Part shown: positions 15,738 to 42,914 of the stretch, one piece after another | How the letters are laid out: each line of letters opens with the position of its first letter | Numbering within the stretch: position 1 is the stretch's first letter | Origin: Bacteroidota bacterium | Lineage (GTDB): Bacteria > Bacteroidota > Bacteroidia > B-17B0 > Aurantibacillaceae | Reading direction: 5' to 3' | Assembly: GCA_030684395.1 (NCBI GenBank) | Contig: JAUXTT010000026.1 | Span: forward strand, 1 to 64,000 | DNA length: 64,000 nt | Notes under the pieces: model-generated | Told to the model about the DNA's origin: nothing | What the model saw: the letters and a program-made list of their open reading frames with translations, nothing else | Databases searched by the model: none | Program-made: the position numbers and the translations under genes

Positions 15738-15827
15738 GTTTACCGCCCTTTTCCTTAAAATTCCCAATAGGGGATTCCCTCAAAACCCCTTTAAATTTTT
15801 AAAACATGAGGAATGTCATCTGCAAGA

Positions 15828-15871
15828 TTGACGAATCTCAAAGGAATTCACCGGGCAACTTCCCATCTTTG
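15828..15871 (+). promoter_or_regulatory. Crp/Fnr-type box and -7 element of the DoxX-Usp operon
   Basis: TTGACGAATCTCAA (15828-15841) is a perfect TTGA-N6-TCAA palindrome. Exactly 35 bases from its TGA lies CATCTTTG (15864-15871), one mismatch from TAnnTTTG. A weaker TGA-N6-TCA also sits at 15807-15818. Start codon GTG at 15890. Confidence 0.6.
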
Positions 15872-15889: not shown

Positions 15890-16318
15890 GTGGAAACAGA
15901 AATTAAATATTACACTCTTGAGTTTATGGTGAGGATTTTTTGCGCCATCCTCTTTATTTTCCAAGGTTACGATAAAATTTTTGTCGTGAAACTCGAAGGG
16001 GTGCGGCAAACCTTTTACAGTGAAACTGACAAACGGAATATCCCTCGCTTTTTTGTGAATTTCCTTGCTGCCTATACTTCCTACGTAGAATTATTGGCGG
16101 GGATATTTCTCTTGTTGGGCTTGTTTAAAACCTATGCACTCATCGGGTTGGGAATAGACCTAATTCTGGTTGGCGCATCATTTTCATACATGCAGGCAAT
16201 GTGGGATATGAAGTATGTTTTCCCTCGTTTGGTTTTGGTTGCACTACTATTGGTTCTGCCTAATTCTTGGGAATTTTTAAGTCTTGATAAACTAATACAA
16301 ACCTACCTCATCAAATAA
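15890..16318 (+). CDS. DoxX-family membrane protein
   Basis: Protein of 142 residues with four hydrophobic segments (FMVRIFCAILFIFQGYDKIF, AAYTSYVELLAGIFLLLGLF, YALIGLGIDLILVGASF, FPRLVLVALLLVLP), the layout of DoxX-like quinone-associated membrane proteins. The RIFCAILFIFQGYDKI start matches the usual N-terminal helix with its Gly-x-x-Lys. GTG 15890 is used as start; an internal ATG at 15926 would cut the N-terminus. It is 3 bases from the universal stress gene and shares its Crp/Fnr-boxed promoter, so it is probably induced under low oxygen. Confidence 0.8.
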   Translation: METEIKYYTLEFMVRIFCAILFIFQGYDKIFVVKLEGVRQTFYSETDKRNIPRFFVNFLAAYTSYVELLAGIFLLLGLFKTYALIGLGIDLILVGASFSYMQAMWDMKYVFPRLVLVALLLVLPNSWEFLSLDKLIQTYLIK

Positions 16319-16321
16319 GCC

Positions 16322-17131
16322 ATGAAAAACAAAAACACCATATTAGTAGGGGTCGACTATTCCAAATCAGCTGAAAATGCTTTGCTGTATGCTGCGCTCC
16401 TTGCTTCAAAAACAGGTAGTGCCCTGATGTTGATGCATGTATTTGATATTCCGGTATTGCACACCAATTCGGGAATTTATTTTATCAGCTACGAATCTAT
16501 TAAAGAGGAACATCAGAACCATTTGGAAAAATACAAGCAATTGGTTTTAAAAAACTATCCTAAAATGGAAGTGAAAACATTCGTCACTTCTATGTCTTTC
16601 AAATCAGAAATAAAAGACCTGAGTAGCAGTAAAAAAATTCAGTACGTTGTATTGGGATTAGAAACAAAATCGAAAATATCGCGATTCATTTATGGAACTA
16701 CCAGCCTTGATATAGCAGGAAAAGTTGATTGCCCTGTGATTATAGTACCTCAAAAATACAAAGAGCACAAGCTAAGTAAAACCGTTCTTGCGGTGGATAA
16801 TGCCGAGGCAACCAAATCAAAATTATTTACAAAATTCGTTAAGTTTAATGAACGCTTTAAAGCAAAGCCCTTGTACGTTCACATAAAAACAGAAGACGAA
16901 TTAAATCTCGGAATTAAGCCGGCTAAAAAGGGAAAACCGGAAATAAAAATTGAGGAATTAGAAAGCAAAAGTTTTGTTTTGGGGATTAACCGCTATGTAA
17001 GAGAAAACGGAGTTGATTTGGTTACCGTAGTAAGTCAATCACACTCATTGATTTATAACTTATTCAGCGAACGAAACACAAAGCTTATCGCCTTTCAATC
17101 CAAAATACCCGTAATGTCATTACACGAATAA
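16322..17131 (+). CDS. Universal stress protein, tandem UspA domains
   Basis: Cytoplasmic protein of 269 residues with two UspA-like halves. The first (about 1-140) starts TILVGVDYSKSAENALLYA and ends with VDCPVIIVPQKY. The second (about 152-269) begins KTVLAVDNAEATKSK and ends IAFQSKIPVMSLHE. The nucleotide-binding G-2x-G-9x-G[S/T] motif is not clear in either half, so ATP binding is uncertain. It is co-transcribed with DoxX, and the next gene follows after 20 bases. Usp genes are often induced by hypoxia, in line with the upstream Fnr-type box. Confidence 0.88.
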   Translation: MKNKNTILVGVDYSKSAENALLYAALLASKTGSALMLMHVFDIPVLHTNSGIYFISYESIKEEHQNHLEKYKQLVLKNYPKMEVKTFVTSMSFKSEIKDLSSSKKIQYVVLGLETKSKISRFIYGTTSLDIAGKVDCPVIIVPQKYKEHKLSKTVLAVDNAEATKSKLFTKFVKFNERFKAKPLYVHIKTEDELNLGIKPAKKGKPEIKIEELESKSFVLGINRYVRENGVDLVTVVSQSHSLIYNLFSERNTKLIAFQSKIPVMSLHE

Positions 17132-17151: not shown

Positions 17152-17520
17152 ATGATACTTCATTTATCAAAAAATAAATCTTTACACGACGTTCAAACGG
17201 AGTTTACTTCTTATTTCCCATATTTAAGGATTGGCTTTTTTAATAAGCGCCACAAGGCTTTTCAGGGCTCAGACAGAGCTGCCTTGTTAAAACCAGAGGC
17301 TAAATTACCACTCACAGGTGAGAGGGATAATCTGGAAGTCGAGATCGACGAAACCATGACCGTAAAGGCACTGGAAGAAATGTTCAAAAAACAATTGAAT
17401 TTAAATATTCAGGTATTTAGAAAATCAGGGAGGGCCTGGCTAGAGACGACCGTAACAGATAACTGGACGCTGAGAAAACAAAATGAAGAAGGAAAAGAGC
17501 TTAGTGATCTAAGCTTTTAA
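17152..17520 (+). CDS. Conserved hypothetical protein of 122 residues
   Basis: Soluble alpha/beta protein of 122 residues starting MILHLSKNKSLHDVQTEFTSYFP, with the pattern VKALEEMFKKQLNLNIQVFRKSGRAWLETTVTD. No signal peptide or catalytic motif is seen. I do not assign a family. It is the third gene of the DoxX-Usp unit, and its 3' end overlaps the convergent response regulator by 12 bases, so the two transcripts are antisense at their ends. Confidence 0.7.
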   Translation: MILHLSKNKSLHDVQTEFTSYFPYLRIGFFNKRHKAFQGSDRAALLKPEAKLPLTGERDNLEVEIDETMTVKALEEMFKKQLNLNIQVFRKSGRAWLETTVTDNWTLRKQNEEGKELSDLSF

Positions 17521-18567
17521 CTTTCTAAGTTTTTCTATATCTACTACAGAAATATTACTTCCTTTTATTTCAACCAGTTTTTCTTCTTTAAAATCACTTA
17601 AGGTACGAATCAATGATTCTGTAGCGGTTCCGACTATGTTGGCAAGGTCTTCACGCGAAATTGACATGCTGAACTTTTCTTCTTTATTCTGACTGAATTT
17701 TTCGTATAGCGTTACCAAAGCATTTGCAACACGCTTACGTACCGAACTATATGCAAGGTTAATCAATTGTTCTTCCTTCTCCTGTATATCAGCGCTCAGC
17801 ATTTTTACAAATTTTTTCATTACTGATCCATTGTTATAGAGCAGGCTGAAAAAATCTTCTTTAGGAATCAAACACACTTCGCTATCTTCCATTGCCTCCG
17901 CAGATTCAGTAAAACTACTGTTTTCTAATAGTGGAACGTATCCTAAAAATTCTCCCTCTTTATATAAGTGTGTTACTAATTCTTTACCGTATTCGTGCTC
18001 CTTAAATGTTTTAATTTTCCCTTTAGTAACAAAATATAAATAATTGGGCGAGCCCCCTTCATTAAAGATGAGTTCCTTTTTCTTAAAGTGCTTTATCTTT
18101 CTATCGTTCGAAAGTTTTTTTAATTCATCGAATGATTTTACTTCATCAAAAAACTGATCCAATCCTTTTGAAGTATGCTCAAATTTAGAGCTCAGCAGTT
18201 CGCCTTTACGCAGCCTGCTTTCTACAGCATTTAATAGCTCAATGTCATCAAACGGTTTTGTTATATAATCGTCCGCGCCCATCTCCATGCCTTTTCTAAG
18301 ATCAACTCTTTCCGTTTTTGCGGTAAGAAAAATAAAAGGAATGGTAGCGGTATCTTTATTTTTCCCTAAAAGGTGAATAACTCCGTATCCATCTAAAACC
18401 GGCATCATAATATCACAGATAATAAGATCGGGTAATTGTTTCTGCGCAATCTCTACTCCTATTTTCCCGTTTTCAGCCTGTAACACTTTATAATTAGCAA
18501 GTTCGAGAATCTCAGCAGTGTTCTCTCTAACATCCGTATTATCTTCAATTAATAATATTGTTTTCAT
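17509..18567 (-). CDS. Response regulator with Crp/Fnr-type output (receiver + cNMP-like domain + HTH_Crp)
   Basis: Transcription regulator of 352 residues. Residues 1-120 are a CheY-like receiver with phospho-acceptor D52 (LIICDIMMP) and K104 (YITKPFD). Residues about 150-275 form a cNMP-binding-like beta barrel (KKELIFNEGGSPNYLYFVTKGKIK). Residues about 280-345 are a Crp-type winged helix (ISREDLANIVGTATESLIRTL) whose recognition helix has E317 and R321, the spacing of the Glu and Arg that read TGA half-sites in CRP and FNR. There is no four-Cys iron-sulphur set, so oxygen input would come through the receiver. It is 18 bases downstream of the histidine kinase on the same strand. A likely ligand of the TGA-N6-TCA boxes in this window. 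Confidence 0.93.
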   Translation of the reverse strand: MKTILLIEDNTDVRENTAEILELANYKVLQAENGKIGVEIAQKQLPDLIICDIMMPVLDGYGVIHLLGKNKDTATIPFIFLTAKTERVDLRKGMEMGADDYITKPFDDIELLNAVESRLRKGELLSSKFEHTSKGLDQFFDEVKSFDELKKLSNDRKIKHFKKKELIFNEGGSPNYLYFVTKGKIKTFKEHEYGKELVTHLYKEGEFLGYVPLLENSSFTESAEAMEDSEVCLIPKEDFFSLLYNNGSVMKKFVKMLSADIQEKEEQLINLAYSSVRKRVANALVTLYEKFSQNKEEKFSMSISREDLANIVGTATESLIRTLSDFKEEKLVEIKGSNISVVDIEKLRKLKA

Positions 18568-18585
18568 AATTATAATTTGGTGATT

Positions 18586-19785
18586 TTAAATTGTGACTGT
18601 GAAAGTTGTGCCGATATTCAATTCACTTTTAAAGGTTATTTTTCCATTCAGTGCTTCCAGGTATTTGCCTACAATATTAAGTCCTAATCCTGTTCCCTGA
18701 ATATTGGTTACGTTTTTTGCACGAAAAAAACGTTCGAATAAATTACTTTGCTCCTCTTTTGGAATACCCACACCCTCGTCCGCAACAATGATTTGCACAT
18801 TCTTTTCAGTAACCAACGTATTTATACGGATTGCTTTTCCTTCGCCGGAGAATTTGATAGCATTTGAAATAAGGTTCAATAAAATATTGCGGATCATTTG
18901 TCGGTCAAGAACCACCGTGCTGTTACCCTCATGTTGATAATCCACAACCTGCCCGGGTTTTTGTATTCCTTTGATATCATTTAATACATCCTTCACCATG
19001 TCGGGCAATAAGAACTCTGTTTTATTCGCAAATATCTTCCCTTCTTCCAAACGTTCTGCCGAAAGAAAATCATTCAAAATCAAAGTCATGTTTGTTACAG
19101 AAGATTTAATCTTTGCCACATGTTTCTTACGTTTCTCATCTTCTTCTTCGGTTTTATATTTATCAATTAAAGAAACTGAAGAAAGTATCGCGCTTAAAGG
19201 AGTTCTGAATTCATGGGAAGCCATGGTAACAAAACGCGATTTCATGTCGTTCAGCTCCTTTTCCTTATCCAGTGCTTTGTGTAATTGTTTTTGTGAATTC
19301 TCGAGTTCATTCAATGCTTCCTGTAAAACCTTGGTACGTTCTTTAACTTTTTGCTCCAATTCCTGATTAACACGTTTTATGTTTTCTTCCGCCGCTTTCC
19401 TTTCTGTGATGTCTATCACAAAGGCAACCACATACATAGCCTCATCCTGTTTATAATGACTTAAGCTTATTTCCAAAGGAAACTCAGTTCCATCTTTCTT
19501 TTTACCAAAAAGATCCCTTCCCTTTCCCATAGAACGGGGACTGGGATGAGCATTAAATTTTTCCCGGTGTTTCTGGTGATTATGCACAAATCGCTGCGGC
19601 ACCAAATCTTCAATAGTTTTTCCCTTTAATCCATATCTTTCGTAGCCGAAAATACGTTCAGAACTAGGATTGGCCTTAATGATCACACCCTCTTGATTGG
19701 TTATGATTATACCTTCAGTAGCGTACTCAAATAAAGCATTCAGGCTTTCCATGTCACTCTTTTTAATCGAACCCAAGGTAGTCAT
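18586..19785 (-). CDS. PAS-domain sensor histidine kinase, candidate FixL-like haem sensor
   Basis: Soluble kinase of 399 residues: PAS domain (about 12-130), coiled coil (about 135-180), HisKA with phospho-acceptor H191 (SHEFRTPLS) and HATPase_c (NLISNAIKF, DEGVGIP, GTGLGLNIV). No membrane span. In the PAS domain, VPQRFVHNHQKHREKF places H70 where FixL has its haem-ligating His, and GKGRDLFGKKKDG places R90 where FixL has its O2-contacting Arg; both pairs are 20 residues apart. This PAS pattern is common, and not every member binds haem. It is co-transcribed with the receiver-Crp regulator, lies next to ccoI and the cbb3 operon, and is preceded by its own Fnr-type box. Confidence 0.92.
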   Translation of the reverse strand: MTTLGSIKKSDMESLNALFEYATEGIIITNQEGVIIKANPSSERIFGYERYGLKGKTIEDLVPQRFVHNHQKHREKFNAHPSPRSMGKGRDLFGKKKDGTEFPLEISLSHYKQDEAMYVVAFVIDITERKAAEENIKRVNQELEQKVKERTKVLQEALNELENSQKQLHKALDKEKELNDMKSRFVTMASHEFRTPLSAILSSVSLIDKYKTEEEDEKRKKHVAKIKSSVTNMTLILNDFLSAERLEEGKIFANKTEFLLPDMVKDVLNDIKGIQKPGQVVDYQHEGNSTVVLDRQMIRNILLNLISNAIKFSGEGKAIRINTLVTEKNVQIIVADEGVGIPKEEQSNLFERFFRAKNVTNIQGTGLGLNIVGKYLEALNGKITFKSELNIGTTFTVTI

Positions 19786-19806: not shown

Positions 19807-19848
19807 CAAAGTTAAGCCCCTTAATCCTGCAGAAACTGACATGGGTCA
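19807..19848 (-). promoter_or_regulatory. Crp/Fnr-type box and -7 element of the histidine kinase operon
   Basis: On the minus strand TGACCCATGTCA (19848-19837) is a TGAC-N4-GTCA palindrome. TAACTTTG (19814-19807), a perfect -7 box, starts 34 bases from its TGA. The kinase ATG is at 19785, giving a short leader. This suggests autoregulation. Confidence 0.6.
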
Positions 19849-19899
19849 TGTTTGCGTGAATTTTAACCGCATTTTACCTGAAATATATCATTATATCCC

Positions 19900-19943
19900 T
19901 TGACATACATCAATGCCCGGATACCCTAACACAAGTAATTTTG
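19900..19943 (+). promoter_or_regulatory. Crp/Fnr-type box and -7 element of ccoI
   Basis: TTGACATACATCAA (19900-19913) is a TTGA-N6-TCAA palindrome. TAATTTTG (19936-19943) begins 35 bases from the TGA, placing the box centre near -41.5. The words AAGTAATTTTGAGCCATAAA around the -7 box recur identically at the ccoS promoter. Confidence 0.75.
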
Positions 19944-19978: not shown

Positions 19979-22414
19979 ATGGTAAAAGAAACGTACACTT
20001 CAGAGAAAATTTCCTGTTACCATTGCGGCGATGAGTGTCAGGACAAGCATATCCACAGGGAAGAGAAGGTTTTTTGTTGCGAAGGATGCAAAATGGTATA
20101 TGAAATACTCAACGAAAACAGCATGTGTGAGTATTACGATCTGGAAAAAAACCCGGGAATTACTCAAAAAGTTAAGGTTAGAGAGGGGAAGTTTGCCATT
20201 CTGGATGATGAAAACGTTCAGGGAAAATTAATTCACTTTAATGAAGGGACAAATAGCCACACCCAATTTTATCTTCCCCAAATGCACTGCGCATCCTGTG
20301 TGTGGTTACTTGAAAACCTGAATAAACTGGACAAAGGCGTCATCAAATCGCAGGTTAATTTCCTGAAAAAGAATATCACGGTTATCTTCGATAATACAAA
20401 AACCTCCTTAAGAAAAATTGCAGAAGTGCTTACCCGTATAGGATATGAGCCACATATCAGTTTGCAGGACGTTTCCAAAAAGAAGATTACGACTTATAAC
20501 AGATCAGAAATAATAAAAATTGGCGTAGCGGGGTTTTGCTTTGGTAATATCATGTTATTAAGCTTCCCCGAATATTTCTCCATTAAAAATTCACCCGATT
20601 TAAACATAAATGCACTCTTTAGCTGGCTTAACCTTTTACTGGCACTGCCCGTTTTCTTTTATTGTGCCACCGGATTTTTTACTTCTGCCTACCATGGCAT
20701 AAAACAAAAATTCCTAAATATTGATGCTCCTATAGCACTGGCAGTGTTGATAACCTTTATGCGAAGCATTTATGAAATAACTACGCAATCAGGGGCAGGT
20801 TATCTCGATAGCATGTCAGGCATTGTATTCTTTATGCTCGTAGGACGCTACTTTCAAAATAAAACATACGATTCTATCTCATTTGAACGCGACTTTACAG
20901 CTTACTTCCCGTTGGGTGTTACTACACTGGATAAAGAAGGAAATGAAAAGCAAGTTTCGGTTGCTGAACTGAAAATTGGAGACCGTATCAAAATACACAA
21001 TGAAGAAATTATTCCCGCCGATTCTATTCTGTTTATGGGCAAGGCAATTATTGATTACAGTTTTGTTACAGGTGAAAGCGCCACGGTTGATAAAACAATA
21101 GGGGAAATTGTTTATGCGGGAGGAAAGCAAAAAGGCGCTGCCATTGAAATGGAAGTAGTAAAGGAAGTTTCGAAGAGCTATTTAACTCAATTGTGGAACA
21201 GTGAAGTATTTAATGAGCAATCCACAAAAAAAACAACCTCCTTTGTTCACAAGCTAAGCAGGTATTTTACCTACATGCTTTTTTCAATTGCCACATTAAG
21301 TGCAATTTACTGGTATTTCAACGACGCTTCAAAAATTCTGGATGCCATTACATCTGTACTTATAGTTGCCTGTCCATGCGCCCTTCTTTTAAGCGCCACC
21401 TTCACCAACGGAAACATGTTAAGCTTGCTCTCAAAAAAAGGTTTTTACCTGAAGAACTCAGATGTGTTAGAGCGCATGAAAGGGATAAATACCATCGTAT
21501 TTGATAAAACGGGAACCATCACACAAGGCAGTCTTTCTGCAATAGAATATTACGGCGATGCTTTAACCGAAGAACAACAATTATTAACCGGAAGTTTGCT
21601 CCGCCAATCGAGCCACCCATTAAGCAAAGCAATTTCTGCAACCCTTCCGAATAATAAACGGGTCTCCATAAAAAATTTCTGGGAAGAAAAAGGAAAAGGT
21701 ATTAGTGCTATTGTTGATCAGGTTGATGTTAAGATTGGCTCTAAAGAATTTGTGGGAGAAAAGAATTCCAGTAACGAAAACTATAGCGGAAGTAAAATAT
21801 ATGTACGCATAGCAGATAGAACGCCCGGATATTTTCTGGTGAAAGGCAAGTACCGTGAAGGTTTAGAAGCTGTTATTGCAAAATTAAGAGCTACAAACAA
21901 ACTGGTTGTTCTCTCCGGAGACAATGACAGTGAAAAAGACCAACTGAAAAAAATATTTGGCGAAGGAACAGAGATGTTTTTCAACAAAAAGCCCGAAGAC
22001 AAGCTGGAATACATAAAACAGCTTCAAGGCGAAGGAAAAAAAGTAATGATGGTTGGTGACGGTTTAAATGACGCCGGAGCTCTTGCCCAGGCAAATGTAG
22101 GAATAGCAGTTTCGGATAACACTAATAATTTTTCTCCTGCCTGTGATGCTATATTATCAGGCACTCAGTTCAATTATTTCTTTGAATTGATAAAATTCAC
22201 TCGGAAACAAAAAACAATCATCGTTGGAAGTTTTATTATTTCCATTGTATACAATATTGTTGGACTTTTTTATGCTGTAAGCGCTGATTTGGAACCAGTA
22301 ATAGCAGCCATACTAATGCCCGCAAGCACTTTTAGCATTGTATTGTTCACTGTAGGGATGAGTTCCTTCTTTGCAAGAAAGGTCCCTACTGATATATATC
22401 ATATCAAGTCCTGA
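19979..22414 (+). CDS. ccoI: Copper-translocating P-type ATPase CcoI/FixI type
   Basis: P1B-type ATPase of 811 residues that exports or delivers copper for assembly of the cbb3 oxidase. An N-terminal Cys-rich module (CYHCGDEC, CCEGCKMVYEIL) precedes a heavy-metal-associated domain with MHCASC (about 102-107). Eight or so membrane spans surround the actuator loop (FVTGESATVDK), the ion-binding CPC (C465-P-C467), the phosphorylation site DKTGT (D509) and the hinge MVGDGLNDAGAL. The Cys-rich N-terminus plus HMA domain is the CcoI/FixI layout. It starts at ATG 19979; the AGGAGG before it is only 2 bases away, too close to be a normal ribosome site. It is controlled by its own Fnr-type promoter and its TGA stop forms half of the next box. 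Confidence 0.95.
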   Translation: MVKETYTSEKISCYHCGDECQDKHIHREEKVFCCEGCKMVYEILNENSMCEYYDLEKNPGITQKVKVREGKFAILDDENVQGKLIHFNEGTNSHTQFYLPQMHCASCVWLLENLNKLDKGVIKSQVNFLKKNITVIFDNTKTSLRKIAEVLTRIGYEPHISLQDVSKKKITTYNRSEIIKIGVAGFCFGNIMLLSFPEYFSIKNSPDLNINALFSWLNLLLALPVFFYCATGFFTSAYHGIKQKFLNIDAPIALAVLITFMRSIYEITTQSGAGYLDSMSGIVFFMLVGRYFQNKTYDSISFERDFTAYFPLGVTTLDKEGNEKQVSVAELKIGDRIKIHNEEIIPADSILFMGKAIIDYSFVTGESATVDKTIGEIVYAGGKQKGAAIEMEVVKEVSKSYLTQLWNSEVFNEQSTKKTTSFVHKLSRYFTYMLFSIATLSAIYWYFNDASKILDAITSVLIVACPCALLLSATFTNGNMLSLLSKKGFYLKNSDVLERMKGINTIVFDKTGTITQGSLSAIEYYGDALTEEQQLLTGSLLRQSSHPLSKAISATLPNNKRVSIKNFWEEKGKGISAIVDQVDVKIGSKEFVGEKNSSNENYSGSKIYVRIADRTPGYFLVKGKYREGLEAVIAKLRATNKLVVLSGDNDSEKDQLKKIFGEGTEMFFNKKPEDKLEYIKQLQGEGKKVMMVGDGLNDAGALAQANVGIAVSDNTNNFSPACDAILSGTQFNYFFELIKFTRKQKTIIVGSFIISIVYNIVGLFYAVSADLEPVIAAILMPASTFSIVLFTVGMSSFFARKVPTDIYHIKS

Positions 22415-22454
22415 CAAGAGTCAGCAATGCTTTTTGATAGCTAAAGTAATTTTG
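22412..22454 (+). promoter_or_regulatory. Crp/Fnr-type box and -7 element of the ccoS-ccoNO operon
   Basis: TGACAAGAGTCA (22412-22423) is a perfect TGAC-N4-GTCA palindrome, CTGAC/GTCAG with flanks. TAATTTTG (22447-22454) begins exactly 35 bases from the TGA, the same spacing as at ccoI. The TGA of the left half-site is also the ccoI stop codon. The -7 region repeats the ccoI sequence AAGTAATTTTGAGCCATAAA. Confidence 0.75.
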
Positions 22455-22465
22455 AGCCATAAATC

Positions 22466-22636
22466 ATGAGTGTAATAATAATATTAGTAATTGCCAGTTT
22501 AATCATCGCATTGATTTTTCTTTTCGCCTTTATATGGTCTGTAAAGAAAGGACAATACGAAGACGATTATACTCCTTCTATTCGGATGCTGTTTGATAGC
22601 GAAACCACTCAGGACGAAACAAAAGACAAAAAGTAA
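22466..22636 (+). CDS. ccoS: Cbb3-type oxidase assembly protein CcoS
   Basis: Small membrane protein of 56 residues, MSVIIILVIASLIIALIFLF at the N-terminus (one membrane span) followed by the CcoS signature of a short basic turn and an acidic tail (WSVKKGQYEDDYTPSIRML). CcoS is needed for cofactor insertion into the cbb3 oxidase. It sits between ccoI and ccoNO, as expected, with 11 bases to ccoNO. The GQYEDDYTPSIRMLFD block matches the family pattern GQ[YF]DD...P..R[ML]L. Confidence 0.92.
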   Translation: MSVIIILVIASLIIALIFLFAFIWSVKKGQYEDDYTPSIRMLFDSETTQDETKDKK

Positions 22637-22647
22637 AACAAATAACT

Positions 22648-24777
22648 ATGGAAGTACAAGTTGAAAAATTTCAGTATGACAACAAGATTGTCAAGTGGTT
22701 TGCCTACGCAACGATGCTATGGGGAATTGTGGGAATGTTGGCAGGATTGTTAGCTGCCTTACAATTATTTTTACCGGCCTTAAATTTCGAATTGCCTTAC
22801 ACCACATTTGGTCGCGTGAGACCTGTTCACACGAATGCAGTAATTTTTGCATTTGTTGGTAATGGTATTTTCATGGGTGTTTATTACTCACTTCAGCGTT
22901 TGTGTAAAACCCGAATGTTTAGCGATATGCTAAGTAAGATCCATTTCTGGGGTTGGCAGTTAATAATTGTTCTTGCAGCAATTACCTTATTGCTGGGTAA
23001 AACAACAGGTAAAGAGTATGCCGAATTAGAATGGCCGATCGATATTCTAATCACATTGATTTGGGTAGTATTTGGCTGGAACATGTTTGGAACCATCTTA
23101 CGCAGAAGAGAAAAACATTTATATGTTGCGATCTGGTTTTACATAGGAACGTTCATTACCGTTGCAATGCTTCATATTGTCAACTCTATTGAGATTCCTG
23201 TTTCCTTTTGGAAATCTTATTCATGGTACGCCGGTGTGCAGGATGCTTTAGTACAATGGTGGTATGGGCATAACGCGGTTGCGTTTTTCTTAACTACTCC
23301 GTATTTAGGTTTGATGTATTATTTCTTACCAAAAGCTGCGAATCGACCTGTATACTCCTATCGTTTATCTATCATACATTTTTGGGCACTGATCTTTATT
23401 TATATCTGGGCAGGGCCTCACCATTTATTATATACTGCGGTTCCTGATTGGGCTCAATCATTAGGCGTTGTATTTTCTATTATGTTAATTGCCCCATCAT
23501 GGGGCGGTATGATAAATGGTTTACTCACTCTTCGCGGAGCATGGGACAAAGTAAGAGAAGACGCTGTATTAAAATTTATGGTGGTTGCTGTAACCGCTTA
23601 CGGTATGGCAACTTTTGAAGGACCGATGTTATCTCTTAAAAACGTAAATGCTATTTCTCACTTTACCGATTGGACCATTGCTCACGTTCACGTTGGCGCC
23701 TTGGGTTGGAATGGGTTCTTAACATTTGGTATCCTGTATTGGATCATACCAAAAATGTTCCAGACACAATTGTATTCCAAAAAACTCGCAAATATGCATT
23801 TCTGGATTGGCACTTTAGGTATTGTATTATATGCAGTTCCGATGTATTGGTCAGGTATCATGCAAAGTTTAATGTGGAAAGACTTTACTCCTGAAGGACA
23901 ATTAAAATGGCAGTTCATGGACACCGTTAATGAGATGATCCCATTCTATGCAGCACGTGCAGCAGGTGGAGCATTATTTTTAGTTGGAGCGTTATTAATG
24001 GTTTATAATCTTATCAAAACTGTTAAGATCGGAACCTTCCTTCCAAACGAAAATGCAGAAGCTCCTGCACTTTCAAAAACCTACACTAAACACGCTGGCG
24101 AACACTGGCACCGTTGGATCGAACGTAAACCAATTCAATTGATGGTGCTTAGTTTGGTTGTGGTTACAATAGGTGGTTTGATAGAATTTTTACCAACCTT
24201 TTTAGTAAAATCAAACATCCCAACCATTGCAAGCGTTAAACCCTATACTCCTTTAGAGTTACACGGAAGAGATATCTACATCAGAGAAGGCTGTTACACT
24301 TGTCACTCACAAATGATCCGACCTTTCAGAAATGAAACGGCGAGATACGGTGAATATTCTAAAGCAGGTGAGTTTGTGTATGACCATCCATTCCAATGGG
24401 GGAGTAAGCGTACCGGCCCTGACTTAGCAAGGCTTGGCGGTAAATATCCGGATTTCTGGCACTACAATCACATGTTAGATCCAACATCTATGTCGCCGGG
24501 TTCTATCATGCCGTCTTATCCATGGTTATTTGAAGATCAGGTTGATGTTGCTTCAACAGTTGGAAAGATCAAAGCAATGCAAAAACTAGGCGTTCCTTAT
24601 CCGGAAGGTTATTCGGAAATAGCCGCAAAAGACATGGAAAAACAAGCGAACCTAATTGCAGCTAATCTAAAAAAAGATGGTATTACAACACTACCCGATC
24701 GCGAGATTGTTTCTTTGATAGCTTATTTACAGCGGTTAGGAAAAGATATTAAAGCGGAAAAAGTAGCAACAAAATAA
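22648..24777 (+). CDS. ccoNO: Cbb3-type cytochrome c oxidase, fused subunits I (CcoN) and II (CcoO)
   Basis: Inner-membrane terminal oxidase protein of 709 residues that reduces O2 to water. Residues about 15-475 are the CcoN haem-copper core with about 12 membrane spans; conserved His-bearing segments include VRPVHTNAVIFAF, YGHNAVAFFLTTPYLG and AHVHVGALGWNGF. From about residue 490 a CcoO part begins with one span and a mono-haem cytochrome c domain, CYTCH at 549-553 followed by SQMIRPFRNE, the CcoO signature. Separate genes are usual in Proteobacteria; the fusion is known in Bacteroidota. High O2 affinity fits the hypoxic-type promoter of this operon. Confidence 0.96.
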   Translation: MEVQVEKFQYDNKIVKWFAYATMLWGIVGMLAGLLAALQLFLPALNFELPYTTFGRVRPVHTNAVIFAFVGNGIFMGVYYSLQRLCKTRMFSDMLSKIHFWGWQLIIVLAAITLLLGKTTGKEYAELEWPIDILITLIWVVFGWNMFGTILRRREKHLYVAIWFYIGTFITVAMLHIVNSIEIPVSFWKSYSWYAGVQDALVQWWYGHNAVAFFLTTPYLGLMYYFLPKAANRPVYSYRLSIIHFWALIFIYIWAGPHHLLYTAVPDWAQSLGVVFSIMLIAPSWGGMINGLLTLRGAWDKVREDAVLKFMVVAVTAYGMATFEGPMLSLKNVNAISHFTDWTIAHVHVGALGWNGFLTFGILYWIIPKMFQTQLYSKKLANMHFWIGTLGIVLYAVPMYWSGIMQSLMWKDFTPEGQLKWQFMDTVNEMIPFYAARAAGGALFLVGALLMVYNLIKTVKIGTFLPNENAEAPALSKTYTKHAGEHWHRWIERKPIQLMVLSLVVVTIGGLIEFLPTFLVKSNIPTIASVKPYTPLELHGRDIYIREGCYTCHSQMIRPFRNETARYGEYSKAGEFVYDHPFQWGSKRTGPDLARLGGKYPDFWHYNHMLDPTSMSPGSIMPSYPWLFEDQVDVASTVGKIKAMQKLGVPYPEGYSEIAAKDMEKQANLIAANLKKDGITTLPDREIVSLIAYLQRLGKDIKAEKVATK

Positions 24778-24995: not shown

Positions 24996-26201
24996 ATGAA
25001 AAAAATTATAAAAATAACATCCATTTTAAGTGCTGTTTTTTTAATACTTCCGCACGTTGGTTACTCTCAGGAGGTGCAACAAGTTCAAGCAAGTTCTTAT
25101 TTTACCAACGCACTTTTTAATGTTCTATTCTTAGTAATCTTGCTTTTGCTTGCTCTTATAGCAGTTGTAGCGAGCGTGGTAAAAAATGTTGCAGATAGTG
25201 AATACGTAAAAGAAAAATTGAAACGCATTCAGGAAAAGAAAAAGAATGAGTCAGCAAAAACACTTGGGATTCTGGCTTTATTCCTGCTTGCGTTTCAATC
25301 CGGATTTGCACAGGAACCAGCACAGGTTGCGGCGGTTAACGATTGGCTCATAGGTGGTTTAGATATGTTTACCTTTTTCGGAATGGTGTTTGTGATCTTA
25401 TGTGAGATCGCCGTGCTGATTATTTTAGTGAACATCCTGAAAACGGTTTTAAAAAGCGATAAGGAAAAAGTTGCTGTTGCTGCTTCTGTAAAAATAGAGC
25501 CAAAGAAAACCATATTGGATAAACTGAATGCCTCTGTAGAAGTTGAAAAAGAAAAGGACATTTTATTGGATCACGATTATGATGGCATCAAGGAGTTAAA
25601 TAACGATTTACCCCCTTGGTGGAAATATGGTTTTTACTTAACAATTCTCATCGCGTTTGTTTATATGATACATTATCACGGATCTAAAACAGGTGATCTG
25701 CAAATAGCAGAGTATGACAAATCAATTGAGAAAGCTAAAGCTGAAGTTGCCGAATACATGAAAAATGCAGCGGGCAATGTGGATGAGTCTACTGTAAAAC
25801 AATTAGAAGGAGCAGATCTTGCAACAGGCAAGGAATTATTTATTGCAAATTGTGCCGCTTGCCATGGTAAAGCAGGTGAAGGAACCGTTGGTCCCAACTT
25901 AACCGATAAATTTTGGATTCACAGTGGCGGATTGGCAGATATTTTCAAATCTATTAAATATGGTTGGGTTGATAAAGGTATGAAGGCCTGGAAAGAAGAT
26001 CTATCGCCAATGCAAATTGCGCAGATCTCAAGTTATATCCGAACATTGCAGGGAACAAATCCTCCTAATCAAAAAGCTGCACAGGGAGATCTTTATGTTG
26101 AAGCAGCTGGTGCGCCGGGAGATTCGTTGGCAGCAACAACTGATTCATTGCAAGTTGATAGCTTGAAGATTGTTCCTTTGGATACGTTGAAGAAAAAATA
26201 A
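24996..26201 (+). CDS. ccoP: Cbb3-type oxidase subunit III (CcoP)
   Basis: Membrane-bound cytochrome c subunit of 401 residues that feeds electrons to CcoNO. An N-terminal signal-like segment (1-24, ending VGYSQ) and further hydrophobic spans (about 36-62, 87-103 and 122-147) are followed by the conserved CcoP segment LNNDLPPWWKYGFYLTILIAFVY (about 200-222). One cytochrome c domain carries CAACH at 286-290 with a Met-rich distal side (YGWVDKGMKAWKEDL). Proteobacterial CcoP has two haems; only one is seen here. Part of the FNR-boxed ccoS...hemN operon. Confidence 0.94.
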   Translation: MKKIIKITSILSAVFLILPHVGYSQEVQQVQASSYFTNALFNVLFLVILLLLALIAVVASVVKNVADSEYVKEKLKRIQEKKKNESAKTLGILALFLLAFQSGFAQEPAQVAAVNDWLIGGLDMFTFFGMVFVILCEIAVLIILVNILKTVLKSDKEKVAVAASVKIEPKKTILDKLNASVEVEKEKDILLDHDYDGIKELNNDLPPWWKYGFYLTILIAFVYMIHYHGSKTGDLQIAEYDKSIEKAKAEVAEYMKNAAGNVDESTVKQLEGADLATGKELFIANCAACHGKAGEGTVGPNLTDKFWIHSGGLADIFKSIKYGWVDKGMKAWKEDLSPMQIAQISSYIRTLQGTNPPNQKAAQGDLYVEAAGAPGDSLAATTDSLQVDSLKIVPLDTLKKK

Positions 26202-26230: not shown

Positions 26231-27628
26231 ATGAAAGAGGAAGAAAGTTTCAGGGATAAGATTTCCACGATAGACAGTTCGGGGAAAAGAGCTTGGTTAA
26301 ATCCATTGAAGCCGAAGGGGAGATTTTATGATCTGCGAAAATACGCCAGCTACTTTTATTTATTACTTTTCTTTGGACTGCCTTTTATTAAAGTGGGTGG
26401 CAATCCGCTGTTCCTTATAAATATTCTGGAAAGAAAATTTATTCTGTTTGGATTTGTATTCTGGCCTCAGGATATGTTCATCTTCGGGTTGGGAATGGTG
26501 ATCTTCATTGTATTCATCGCTTTGTTTACCGTAATATTTGGCAGGGTGTTTTGTGGTTGGGCATGCCCTCACACTATCTTCCTCGAATTAATTTTTAGAA
26601 GAGTCGAATACTGGATCGATGGGGATTCCGCATATCAAAAACAATTAGCCGCTGCTCCGTGGGATACCAATAAAATTATTAAAAGAACATCCAAGTATTT
26701 CATTTTCTTTTTAATATCCTTTATTATCGCTAACGGCTTTCTTTCCTACATCATTGGAGTAGATGAACTCTTCAAGATCATGTCAGAACCTATTTCCAAA
26801 CACAAAGGAGGCTTCATCTCCATATTAATTTTCACCGGAGTTTTCTTTTTTATATACTCCTGGTTCAGGGAACAGGTTTGTTTAATAGCCTGTCCTTATG
26901 GAAGAATGCAGGGAGTATTATTAGATAAAAACTCCATTGTTGTAGCTTATGATTACGTGAGAGGTGAGGTAAGAAAAAAATTCAAAAAGAACGAAGAACG
27001 AACTGCAGGTGACTGCGTTGATTGTAATTTGTGTGTAAAAGTTTGTCCAACTGGAATTGATATCCGAAATGGCACACAACTCGAATGTACCAATTGCACC
27101 GCTTGTATAGATGTGTGCGATAACATGATGGAAGCCGTAGGTTTAGAGAAAGGGTTAATTCGCTATGCTTCAGAGAATGATATTAAGAACAAGATCAAAT
27201 CAGGATTCACTACACGTATGAAAGCTTATGTTGTAGTGTTGATTGTACTTATCGGTGTTGAGTCAGCTTTTCTTATTACCAGAGAAGATTACGATGCAAC
27301 CGTGATAAGAGCAAAAGGCTTGTTGTATCAGGAACAGCCGGATGATATGATAAGTAATTTATATACCATCAAACTTCTAAACAAAACCAAGGACAGCTTG
27401 CCGGTAATCTTAAAAATAGAAGATTACCCCGACGCGAAAATAGAGATAGTTGGTAAACAACTCTACACAAAAAGTGAAAACATGACGCAAGGGGAGTTCT
27501 TTATTTACTTAAGTAAAAAAGATCTAAAAAGCAGGAAGACAAAATTAAAGATCGATTTATACAGTAACAATAAAAAAATCAGTACAGTTAAAACAACATT
27601 TTTAGGTCCGATAACCACCACGAAGTAG
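26231..27628 (+). CDS. ccoG: Cbb3 oxidase accessory protein CcoG (RdxA/FixG), polyferredoxin
   Basis: Inner-membrane iron-sulphur protein of 465 residues involved in copper reduction and assembly of cbb3 oxidase. There are about five spans with the conserved FCGWACPHTIFLE, and two 4Fe-4S ferredoxin clusters, CVDCNLCVKVCP and CTNCTACIDVC. A C-terminal soluble domain (about 350-465) has the immunoglobulin-like fold usual for CcoG (VILKIEDYPDAKIEI...). The gene lies between ccoP and ccoH in the normal fix/cco order. Confidence 0.95.
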   Translation: MKEEESFRDKISTIDSSGKRAWLNPLKPKGRFYDLRKYASYFYLLLFFGLPFIKVGGNPLFLINILERKFILFGFVFWPQDMFIFGLGMVIFIVFIALFTVIFGRVFCGWACPHTIFLELIFRRVEYWIDGDSAYQKQLAAAPWDTNKIIKRTSKYFIFFLISFIIANGFLSYIIGVDELFKIMSEPISKHKGGFISILIFTGVFFFIYSWFREQVCLIACPYGRMQGVLLDKNSIVVAYDYVRGEVRKKFKKNEERTAGDCVDCNLCVKVCPTGIDIRNGTQLECTNCTACIDVCDNMMEAVGLEKGLIRYASENDIKNKIKSGFTTRMKAYVVVLIVLIGVESAFLITREDYDATVIRAKGLLYQEQPDDMISNLYTIKLLNKTKDSLPVILKIEDYPDAKIEIVGKQLYTKSENMTQGEFFIYLSKKDLKSRKTKLKIDLYSNNKKISTVKTTFLGPITTTK

Positions 27629-32256: not shown

Positions 32257-32298
32257 TGACACAAATCATTTTATAGGAATAAAGCTCTAATACCTTTG
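32257..32298 (+). promoter_or_regulatory. Crp/Fnr-type box and -7 element of the paa operon
   Basis: TTGACACAAATCAT (32256-32269) contains TGA-N6-TCA at 32257-32268. TACCTTTG, a perfect TAnnTTTG, spans 32291-32298, 34 bases from the TGA. The paaA ATG is at 32320. The outer arms are not fully symmetric, so the box is of medium quality. Confidence 0.55.
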
Positions 32299-32319
32299 TA
32301 TGTATCAAAACAAAAGCAC

Positions 32320-33255
32320 ATGCACAACGAACACACCGACGAACATTTTCAATTCCGGATTGATAATGGCGAATATATTGAGCCCAGAGACTACATGCCG
32401 GAAGCTTATAGAAAAAATTTGATCCGTCAGATCTCACAGCATGCACATTCAGAAGTTATAGGAATGCAACCCGAAGGAAACTGGATTACACGTGCTCCCA
32501 GTTTACGATCCAAACAGATCTTATTGGCAAAAATTCAGGACGAAGGCGGTCACGGGCTTTATCTTTATAGTGCTGCAGAAACGCTGGGAGTATCTCGTAC
32601 AGAAATGATTGAGCAGTTACATGCCGGCAAAGCAAAATATTCAAACATTTTTAATTATCCTTCATTGAACTGGGCCGACATTGGAGCAATTGGTTGGCTG
32701 GTAGACGGAGCAGCAATTGTAAATCAGGTTTCTTTGCAACGAACTTCTTATGGACCTTACAGTAGAGCAATGGTGCGGATTTGTAAAGAAGAAAGTTTTC
32801 ATCAGCGCCAGGGTTATGAAATAATGGCAACCATGATGAAAGGAACAAAAGACCAGCAAGCAATGGCACAAGATGCTATGAACAGATGGTGGTGGCCTGC
32901 ATTGATGATGTTTGGTCCGCATGACACCGATTCTCCACATTCAAAAGATGCCATGAAGTGGAAAATTAAACGCGAAACAAATGATGAATTACGCCAGAAG
33001 TTTATTGATAAAACAATTCCCCAGGCTGAATTAATTGGTCTCACCGTTCCTGATAAAGACCTGAAGTGGAATGAAGCCGCAAAAAAATACGATCATGGCG
33101 AAATAAACTGGGAAGAATTTTATTCGGTGATTAAAGGTGATGGTCCTTGCAACAAACAGCGCTTGTCCCATCACATCAAATATCATGAAGATGGCGTTTG
33201 GGTAAGAGAAGCCGCGGAGGCTCACAAATTGAAAACCAATTTATCAGTAGTTTAA
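32320..33255 (+). CDS. paaA: 1,2-phenylacetyl-CoA epoxidase subunit PaaA
   Basis: Catalytic di-iron subunit (311 residues) of the phenylacetyl-CoA epoxidase, which uses O2 to epoxidise the ring and start aerobic phenylacetate breakdown. The sequence has the PaaA features: [20 protein letters not shown], the ferritin-like Glu/His ligands in [15 protein letters not shown] and [16 protein letters not shown], and the [15 protein letters not shown] block. The reading frame starts at a TTG further upstream; ATG 32320 fits the promoter. It is followed 12 bases later by paaB. Confidence 0.96.
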
Positions 33256-35284: not shown

Positions 35285-35327
35285 TGACATAAATCATGTG
35301 TAGGCTTTTTCCATTTCCTTAACTTGC
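35285..35327 (+). promoter_or_regulatory. Crp/Fnr-type box and -7 element upstream of the 114-aa gene
   Basis: ACATGACATAAATCATGT (35282-35299) has perfect 6-base arms around TGA-N6-TCA (35285-35296), the most symmetric box in the window. The octamer 35 bases from its TGA is TAACTTGC (35320-35327), a poorer -7 match. The start codon would be ATG 35339. Confidence 0.6.
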
Positions 35328-42871: not shown

Positions 42872-42914
42872 TGACTTGCGTCACCTTCCGTTTCCTTTAT
42901 CTTTAGTCTCTTTG
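42872..42914 (+). promoter_or_regulatory. Crp/Fnr-type box and -7 element of the desaturase operon
   Basis: TGACTTGCGTCA (42872-42883) is a perfect TGAC-N4-GTCA palindrome. Exactly 35 bases from its TGA is TCTCTTTG (42907-42914), sharing T and TTTG with the -7 consensus. The desaturase ATG is at 42949. Confidence 0.6.

Follow-up and report, generated by a model that had tools for sequence, protein, structure and literature searches.

A candidate haem-PAS kinase and receiver-Crp regulator with predicted operators before cbb3 oxidase genes in Bacteroidia

Results

A stretch of 64,000 nucleotides from a Bacteroidota bacterium of the Aurantibacillaceae (contig JAUXTT010000026.1, positions 1 to 64,000), hereafter the window, encodes a sensor kinase of 399 amino acids (18586..19785, minus strand) and a response regulator of 352 (17509..18567, minus strand) beside genes for a cbb3 oxidase. 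From the sequence, we read the two as probably forming a low-oxygen two-component system, in which a haem-PAS kinase acts through a receiver-Crp regulator on the cbb3 genes. The PAS domain of this soluble kinase would probably bind haem at H70, and the kinase would take its signal from a gas, O2 being the likeliest, or from the redox state of the haem. When derepressed, it would phosphorylate D52 of the regulator, a protein that would unite the roles of FixJ and FixK. The Crp half would bind [A/C]TGAYnnnnRTCA[T/G] sites centred near −41.5, and the regulator would switch on the operon that encodes it, together with ccoI and the ccoS-NO-P-G genes. Domains, conservation of the His, operon pairing and boxes with their spacing are features of the sequence; we infer that haem is bound and what its ligand is, that phosphotransfer takes place, that this regulator binds DNA and that it activates and does not repress.

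The two genes lie 18 base pairs (bp) apart on the same strand and probably form one operon. In the kinase, a PAS_9 domain (residues 24-128) precedes the HisKA (181-249) and HATPase_c (294-399) core also found in FixL, all above the Pfam cut-offs, with H191 as the predicted phospho-acceptor. Compared with the PDB by phmmer, residues 1-139 (encoded at 19369..19785, minus strand) have seven FixL sequences as their top matches (best E 1.5e-13), with 10jx, a 'multi-sensor signal transduction histidine kinase', next, and after it the 'heme PAS sensor protein' 1v9y (E 7.6e-9) and entries named DosP (from E 9e-8). In the FixL alignment, which has no gaps, H70 falls on the proximal His and R90 on the distal Arg. 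These two residues and D52 of the regulator stand where an earlier reading of the sequence alone had placed them; we take the FixL partners to be H200 and R220. The NCBIfam model NF041777, named for rhizobial FixL, gives the whole kinase 100.7 bits, below its cut-off of 850, and its strongest match covers residues 13-143.

In a first set of relatives, H70, R84, M86 and G87 are each present in 54 of 54 kinases, seven of 61 rows having been dropped as cut at contig ends (L071, L091) or as aligned badly or with another PAS domain (L096, L097, L106, L107, L109). A wider set of 111 kinases has the His in 102 of the 105 with a letter at that position, six more being gapped there; the three that lack it (L106, L107, L109) partner diverged regulators. 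In the kinases of Arcticibacter, Mucilaginibacter and Sphingobacterium, the motif is the FixL-like (H/K)IIG(I/L)GRE, with both His and Arg. These PAS domains, from three named Sphingobacteriaceae, come very close to FixL itself and support haem.

Among the PAS paralogues of the window's genome, those on contigs C18, C35 (two) and C19 keep the His; in a copy on C4, close to the gene of a diverged regulator paralogue, Asn takes its place. That regulator paralogue (C4:23000-24046) belongs to a diverged receiver-Crp group, also seen in loci L106, L108-L113 and L115, with the FNR-like helix P-E-S-x-S-R. The His is missing from the PAS of the kinases adjoining such paralogues in L106 and L109 and near the C4 copy; in L108 one nearby PAS still has it.

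The regulator joins a receiver (Response_reg, residues 4-116, 95.6 bits), a cyclic-nucleotide-type barrel (cNMP_binding, 159-243) and a Crp helix-turn-helix (HTH_Crp_2, 278-350), again all above the Pfam cut-offs. Its output does not match the LuxR type of FixJ, and the architecture proposed in the sequence-only reading is thus borne out. The receiver residues E8, D9, D52 and K104 are invariant in 16 of 16 aligned sequences. The best PDB match of the Crp half is 2gau, a P. gingivalis Crp/Fnr protein without a receiver (E 1e-30), followed by chains named FNR type regulator, which the fold search describes as A. fischeri FNR. The FNR motif consists of an E..SR helix and a TTGAT-n4-ATCAA box; here the recognition helix is TESLIR (residues 316-321) and the outer base of the box is mostly A or C. 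The regulator sequence has no CxxC; of its two Cys in total, C51 belongs to the receiver and the other to the barrel. For want of a Cys cluster, FNR-like Fe-S sensing by the regulator itself was set aside. The phosphate-binding cassette for cyclic AMP follows the pattern FGE(L/I)..R(S/T)A; judged by eye, the regulator segment GEFLGYVPLLENSSFTESAEAM does not.

Structures were predicted for the kinase, with a predicted local distance difference test score of 86.5, and for the regulator (79.7, the receiver stretch 84-106 being poor). In the PDB, the kinase model found full-length matches at large root-mean-square deviation (a WalK model and LOV-kinase chimaeras) as well as kinase cores; the 50 fold matches listed include no entry for a FixL haem domain. 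The regulator model found Crp/FNR chains. These models confirm the domain types only.

An adjacent kinase accompanies 111 of 126 such regulators in 129 stretches examined, most of them selected for holding the regulator, and pairing beyond chance follows from this count; a stricter rule gave 60 pairs and 13 regulators without a kinase. The regulator itself occurs in 69 of 100 relatives (E≤1e-70) and, with a Mucilaginibacter query, in 119 of 395 genomes across the class (E≤1e-100), or 59 of 197 genera. A scan of genome contigs gave at least 80 loci, at least 13 of them near full-length (L221-L233), with named holders including Chitinophaga, Jiulongibacter, Arcticibacter, Mucilaginibacter, Sphingobacterium, Salinimicrobium and Aquimarina; the other 67, matching in the receiver part or over a partial stretch, were not used. 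Genes for cbb3 are present in 29 of 37 regulator-bearing genomes and in 6 of 31 without the regulator (Fisher p 1.9e-6, relatedness ignored), the 37 being chosen from the 69 regulator-bearing genomes, with 34 lacking ccoNO in the fetched stretch. A system widespread in Bacteroidia seems the best reading of this distribution.

In the window, the cbb3 genes lie on the strand opposite to the kinase and regulator. Divergent from the kinase gene and 193 bp away is a predicted target, the gene for a ccoI-type copper P-type ATPase (19979..22414, plus strand), whose best NCBIfam match, 343.8 bits, falls just below the cut-off of 346.25. The ccoS-NO-P-G run, all on the plus strand, begins with a ccoS-like membrane protein of 56 residues (22466..22636), named from position and appearance without a family search. 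It continues with fused ccoN/O for oxidase subunits I and II (22648..24777; NF011053, 1300.7 bits, cut-off 1080), a ccoP-like cytochrome c subunit (24996..26201; 99.4 bits, under the cut-off of 179.95) and the accessory ccoG (26231..27628; 406.9 bits, cut-off 316.7). The adjacency to cbb3 genes pointed out earlier therefore holds, and the predicted operators add to the link.

A palindrome, [A/C]TGAYnnnnRTCA[T/G], often as two copies 22 bp apart, stands upstream of the kinase gene, ccoI and ccoS-NO. We searched all 4-mer dyads with spacers of 3-10 bp against eight shuffles, and TGAYn4RTCA was the leading dyad class before kinase, ccoI, ccoNO and DoxX genes. The predicted operator of the kinase-regulator operon is TGACCCATGTCA (19837..19848, minus strand), followed 22 bp on by TAACTTTG (19807-19814, minus strand). 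That of ccoI is TGACATACATCA (19901..19912, plus strand), with a one-mismatch partner box 22 bp upstream (19879-19890) and TAATTTTG 23 bp on (19936-19943). The predicted tandem operator of ccoS-NOP comprises an upstream copy, TGATATATATCA (22390..22401, plus strand), and a proximal copy, TGACAAGAGTCA (22412..22423, plus strand), again with TAATTTTG 23 bp on (22447-22454).

Across loci, a box lies upstream of 39 of 48 kinase genes, 14 of 16 ccoI, 13 of 14 ccoNO and 25 of 27 DoxX genes, and upstream of few in-operon genes (regulator 3/59, ccoP 0/9) and of 1 of 30 homologues of a 122-residue neighbour, in a count where divergent kinase and ccoI upstream regions overlap and the sets are limited by identity. 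The DoxX figure refers to exact boxes, of which the window's own DoxX region has none. A laxer recount, which left out proteins below 200 residues and hence DoxX, gave kinase 67/107, ccoNO 18/23, ccoI 16/30, ccoG 1/29, ccoP 2/28 and regulator 13/133; other genes of the same stretches gave 129/838, a control that includes neighbours possibly being true targets or sharing divergent promoters. The recount is weaker, yet promoter-proximal genes still separate from in-operon genes. Counts for USP genes, 0/19 at first and 38/84 in the recount with more USP relatives and other start codons, were not used.

Exact tandem pairs 22 bp apart number 10 before kinase genes, 8 before ccoI, 8 before ccoNO and 10 before DoxX. 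When a box is paired with TAnnTTTG at 5-59 bp, 46 of 51 pairs fall at 22-23 or 44-45 bp, with the proviso that an element is counted twice where boxes stand in tandem, and that the upstream regions of divergent genes overlap. In Flavobacterium psychrophilum, mapping put TAnnTTTG at −12 to −5 (PMC9723704). With the element so placed, the proximal box has its centre near −41.5 relative to the predicted start, and the upstream partner near −63.5; the former is the position of class II FNR sites. Four genes of the window have a correctly spaced box, namely those for the kinase and a PaaA-like protein, ccoI and ccoS, and box and −7 element combine at 18 places in its genome, compared with 2 for a reversed control pattern. 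One-mismatch boxes occur in the window at chance level (70 found, 72.2 expected), and the exact core is mildly enriched, both in the window (10 against 5.14 expected, reached by 3 of 100 shuffles) and in the whole genome (320, with 216 for the reversed pattern). The operator evidence is placement and spacing, not box number.

The outer base of the box tracks the recognition helix of the regulator. It is A157 C125 T40 G26 for Ile-helix and G14 A14 T3 C1 for Ser-helix regulators (chi-square p 5e-10). Counted per locus, with at most five sites each, outer C is present in 59 of 73 Ile-helix and 1 of 9 Ser-helix loci, outer G in 18 of 73 and 8 of 9. Fourteen Ser-helix regulators (Arcticibacter, Mucilaginibacter, Sphingobacterium and eleven further genomes, ten of family code f41 and one of f54) are each paired with a kinase that has both His and Arg; nine others are members of the diverged paralogue group.

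Further boxes lie elsewhere. In the window, a predicted site TGACACAAATCA (32257..32268, plus strand), with TACCTTTG 22 bp on, precedes the PaaA-like oxygenase gene (32296-33255), and a weaker tandem pair 22 bp apart, with one mismatch per copy (15806..15841, plus strand), precedes the DoxX-USP genes (15890-17131). One box is found 475 bp upstream of a homogentisate-dioxygenase-like gene (35285-35296) and one before a fatty acid desaturase gene (42872-42883); together with 32257-32298, these stand before genes for O2-using enzymes. Elsewhere in the genome, box and −7 element precede the gene of a DUF2249-ScdA_N-hemerythrin protein, which we take to be of the Fe-S repair type (C19:94627, L146), and an Hsp20 gene (C33:98352, L153). 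They also precede Crp-family or Crp-like genes on C2, C19 and C22, and such a gene on C43 adjoins one (L137, L148, L149, L154), which suggests a Crp/Fnr network like that of FixK and FnrN. The 122-residue neighbour (17152-17520) has no Pfam match, and its gene overlaps the regulator gene, 3' end against 3' end; 41 of 111 kinase-regulator pairs have a homologue of it within the stretch fetched.

Discussion

Several observations weigh against a low-oxygen system of this kind. A cco gene lies inside the fetched stretch in only 42 of 111 pairs. The FixL-like His/Arg pair of the sequence-only reading holds for the His and, as a family feature, not for the Arg: only 30 of 102 His-bearing kinases of the wider set have the distal Arg, and most close relatives have Met, Leu or Ile instead, including both same-genus genomes among the 100 relatives (L052, L080), with Met. 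A tree of 64 regulators puts the window in a starred clade of 24 rows, in which the other 23 partners lack the Arg, and a quick method counts at least eight changes between Arg and non-Arg. On these alignments, H70 is a family feature and R90 is not, and the Arg therefore cannot support FixL-type O2 discrimination for the family. A chance His/Arg spacing within the PAS domain is accordingly rejected for the His and accepted for the Arg. Moreover, Ser85 and Met86 of the window kinase align with two Ile of FixL, presumably Ile215 and Ile216.

An alternative is that the PAS domain binds haem but that most members respond mainly to something other than O2. In the first set, position 90 is Met in 23 kinases, Leu in 11, Ile in 9, Arg in 6 and another residue in 5 of 54. 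Met, Leu or Ile there, with Met86 in all 54, might make the haem six-coordinate (His/Met), sensing redox, carbon monoxide or nitric oxide. In DosP, Met95 is such a haem ligand. The distal-pocket Ile209 of SmFixL would correspond to position 85 of the window kinase, beside Met86. This Ile209 is said to matter for O2 binding, on the strength of an I209M variant (PMC10765370). The Soret bands of SmFixL lie at 434 nm in the reduced and 418 nm in the oxy form (PMC10765370). We nevertheless hold this unlikely, as the Arg is present in the window protein, in some Flavobacteriaceae and in the three named Sphingobacteriaceae relatives, and cbb3 genes are low-O2 genes. It is quite improbable, in our view, that the PAS domain carries no haem and that H70 is structural or serves another ligand, the kinase sensing a metabolite, redox or a quinone. 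R84, M86 and G87 are as strongly conserved as H70, which would fit such a role; the closest solved relatives, however, are haem proteins, and members of the family grade into near-canonical FixL. A published PAS clustering cuts both ways: FixL and DosP share one large cluster with the His invariant in 60% of it (more than 9700 sequences), most of these presumably uncharacterised, and yet this His is read as the primary determinant of haem binding (PMC10468136).

The boxes might also belong to other Crp/Fnr proteins of the one-component FNR-like kind, leaving the regulator with different or partial targets. A box before ccoNO is kept in 6 of 7 loci of regulator-less genomes, against 26 of 29 loci with the regulator, one of which has only 7 bp upstream; the box is hence not exclusive to the regulator. 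In five of the six regulator-less genomes with these loci, the best Crp match is a stand-alone protein with the helix GTATE(T/S)xIR, four of the five having an N-terminal CxxC; two of the genes have a ccoNO nearby, L191 at 5.6 kb and L195, which lacks CxxC, at 3.1 kb, and the sixth genome (G060, 76% complete) gave no Crp match. Besides the regulator, the genome of the window encodes five Crp-family proteins with E..IR or E..VR helices, and the genes of two (C2 and C19:110532) are preceded by a box with a spaced −7 element, the C2 protein bearing CxxC and the helix TESVIR. These paralogues could share the box. Furthermore, the genomes behind the Ser-type sites are two of named Sphingobacteriaceae and seven of f41, sites within one locus are not independent, and the outer-base difference looks like one clade, close to one evolutionary event. 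That the boxes belong elsewhere still seems to us doubtful, given that the kinase-regulator operon is itself preceded by a box in most loci, that the outer base tracks the regulator's helix type and that regulator and cbb3 co-occur. Shared use, as by FixK and FnrN in Rhizobium (PMC7888657), is more likely than exclusive use.

The low-oxygen kinase-regulator pair that we favour would work like FixL-FixJ-FixK, with a FixL-like kinase; by membership it is not FixLJ, because its output differs. With FixL-FixJ of Bradyrhizobium and Sinorhizobium it shares a PAS kinase with the proximal His position (in the window protein also the Arg), a receiver partner and predicted cbb3 control. In contrast to them, the output is Crp/Fnr-type instead of LuxR-type, the family has no conserved distal Arg, and a separate FixK step would be unneeded. 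As we understand FNR and FixK, the regulator resembles them in its Crp fold, the Glu and Arg of its helix, a TGA-core palindrome with a 4-bp spacer and the −41.5 position; it differs in lacking a Cys cluster, in E..IR for E..SR and in an outer A or C for T. EcDosP presumably has the same His and Arg positions in its haem PAS, but its output is a phosphodiesterase and Met95 its ligand. The nearest known logic is that of Rhizobium leguminosarum, where a low-O2 hFixL-FxkR-FixK pathway and FnrN meet at shared FNR-like boxes before the cbb3 operon; FxkR there induces a separate FixK, whereas here receiver and Crp half are fused (PMC7888657).

The high-affinity oxidase of F. psychrophilum is strongly induced at low O2 (PMC9723704). 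Among the titles and abstract openings listed in a literature search, with subscription papers mostly outside it, none described a receiver-Crp regulator with a PAS kinase for cbb3 in Bacteroidia, and none had the switching-on of this oxidase in Bacteroidia as its subject. What is new here is the predicted palindrome operator, with its tandem spacing and placement near −41.5 before the kinase gene, ccoI and ccoS-NO.

Bacteroidia are a major group in soil, sea and gut, and their high-affinity oxidase now has a candidate sensor, regulator, operator and promoter geometry, testable in laboratory strains. In this family, FixL-like sensors that have the distal Arg and others that lack it also form a natural series. 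Quite tentatively, Bacteroidia may have kept one operator and one recognition-helix type for cbb3 while swapping the sensing input, between a stand-alone, Cys-bearing FNR-like protein and a haem-PAS kinase with a receiver-Crp fusion; in the kinase type, the O2-contacting Arg would have been gained or lost several times, so that the haem chemistry or the ligand may have drifted.

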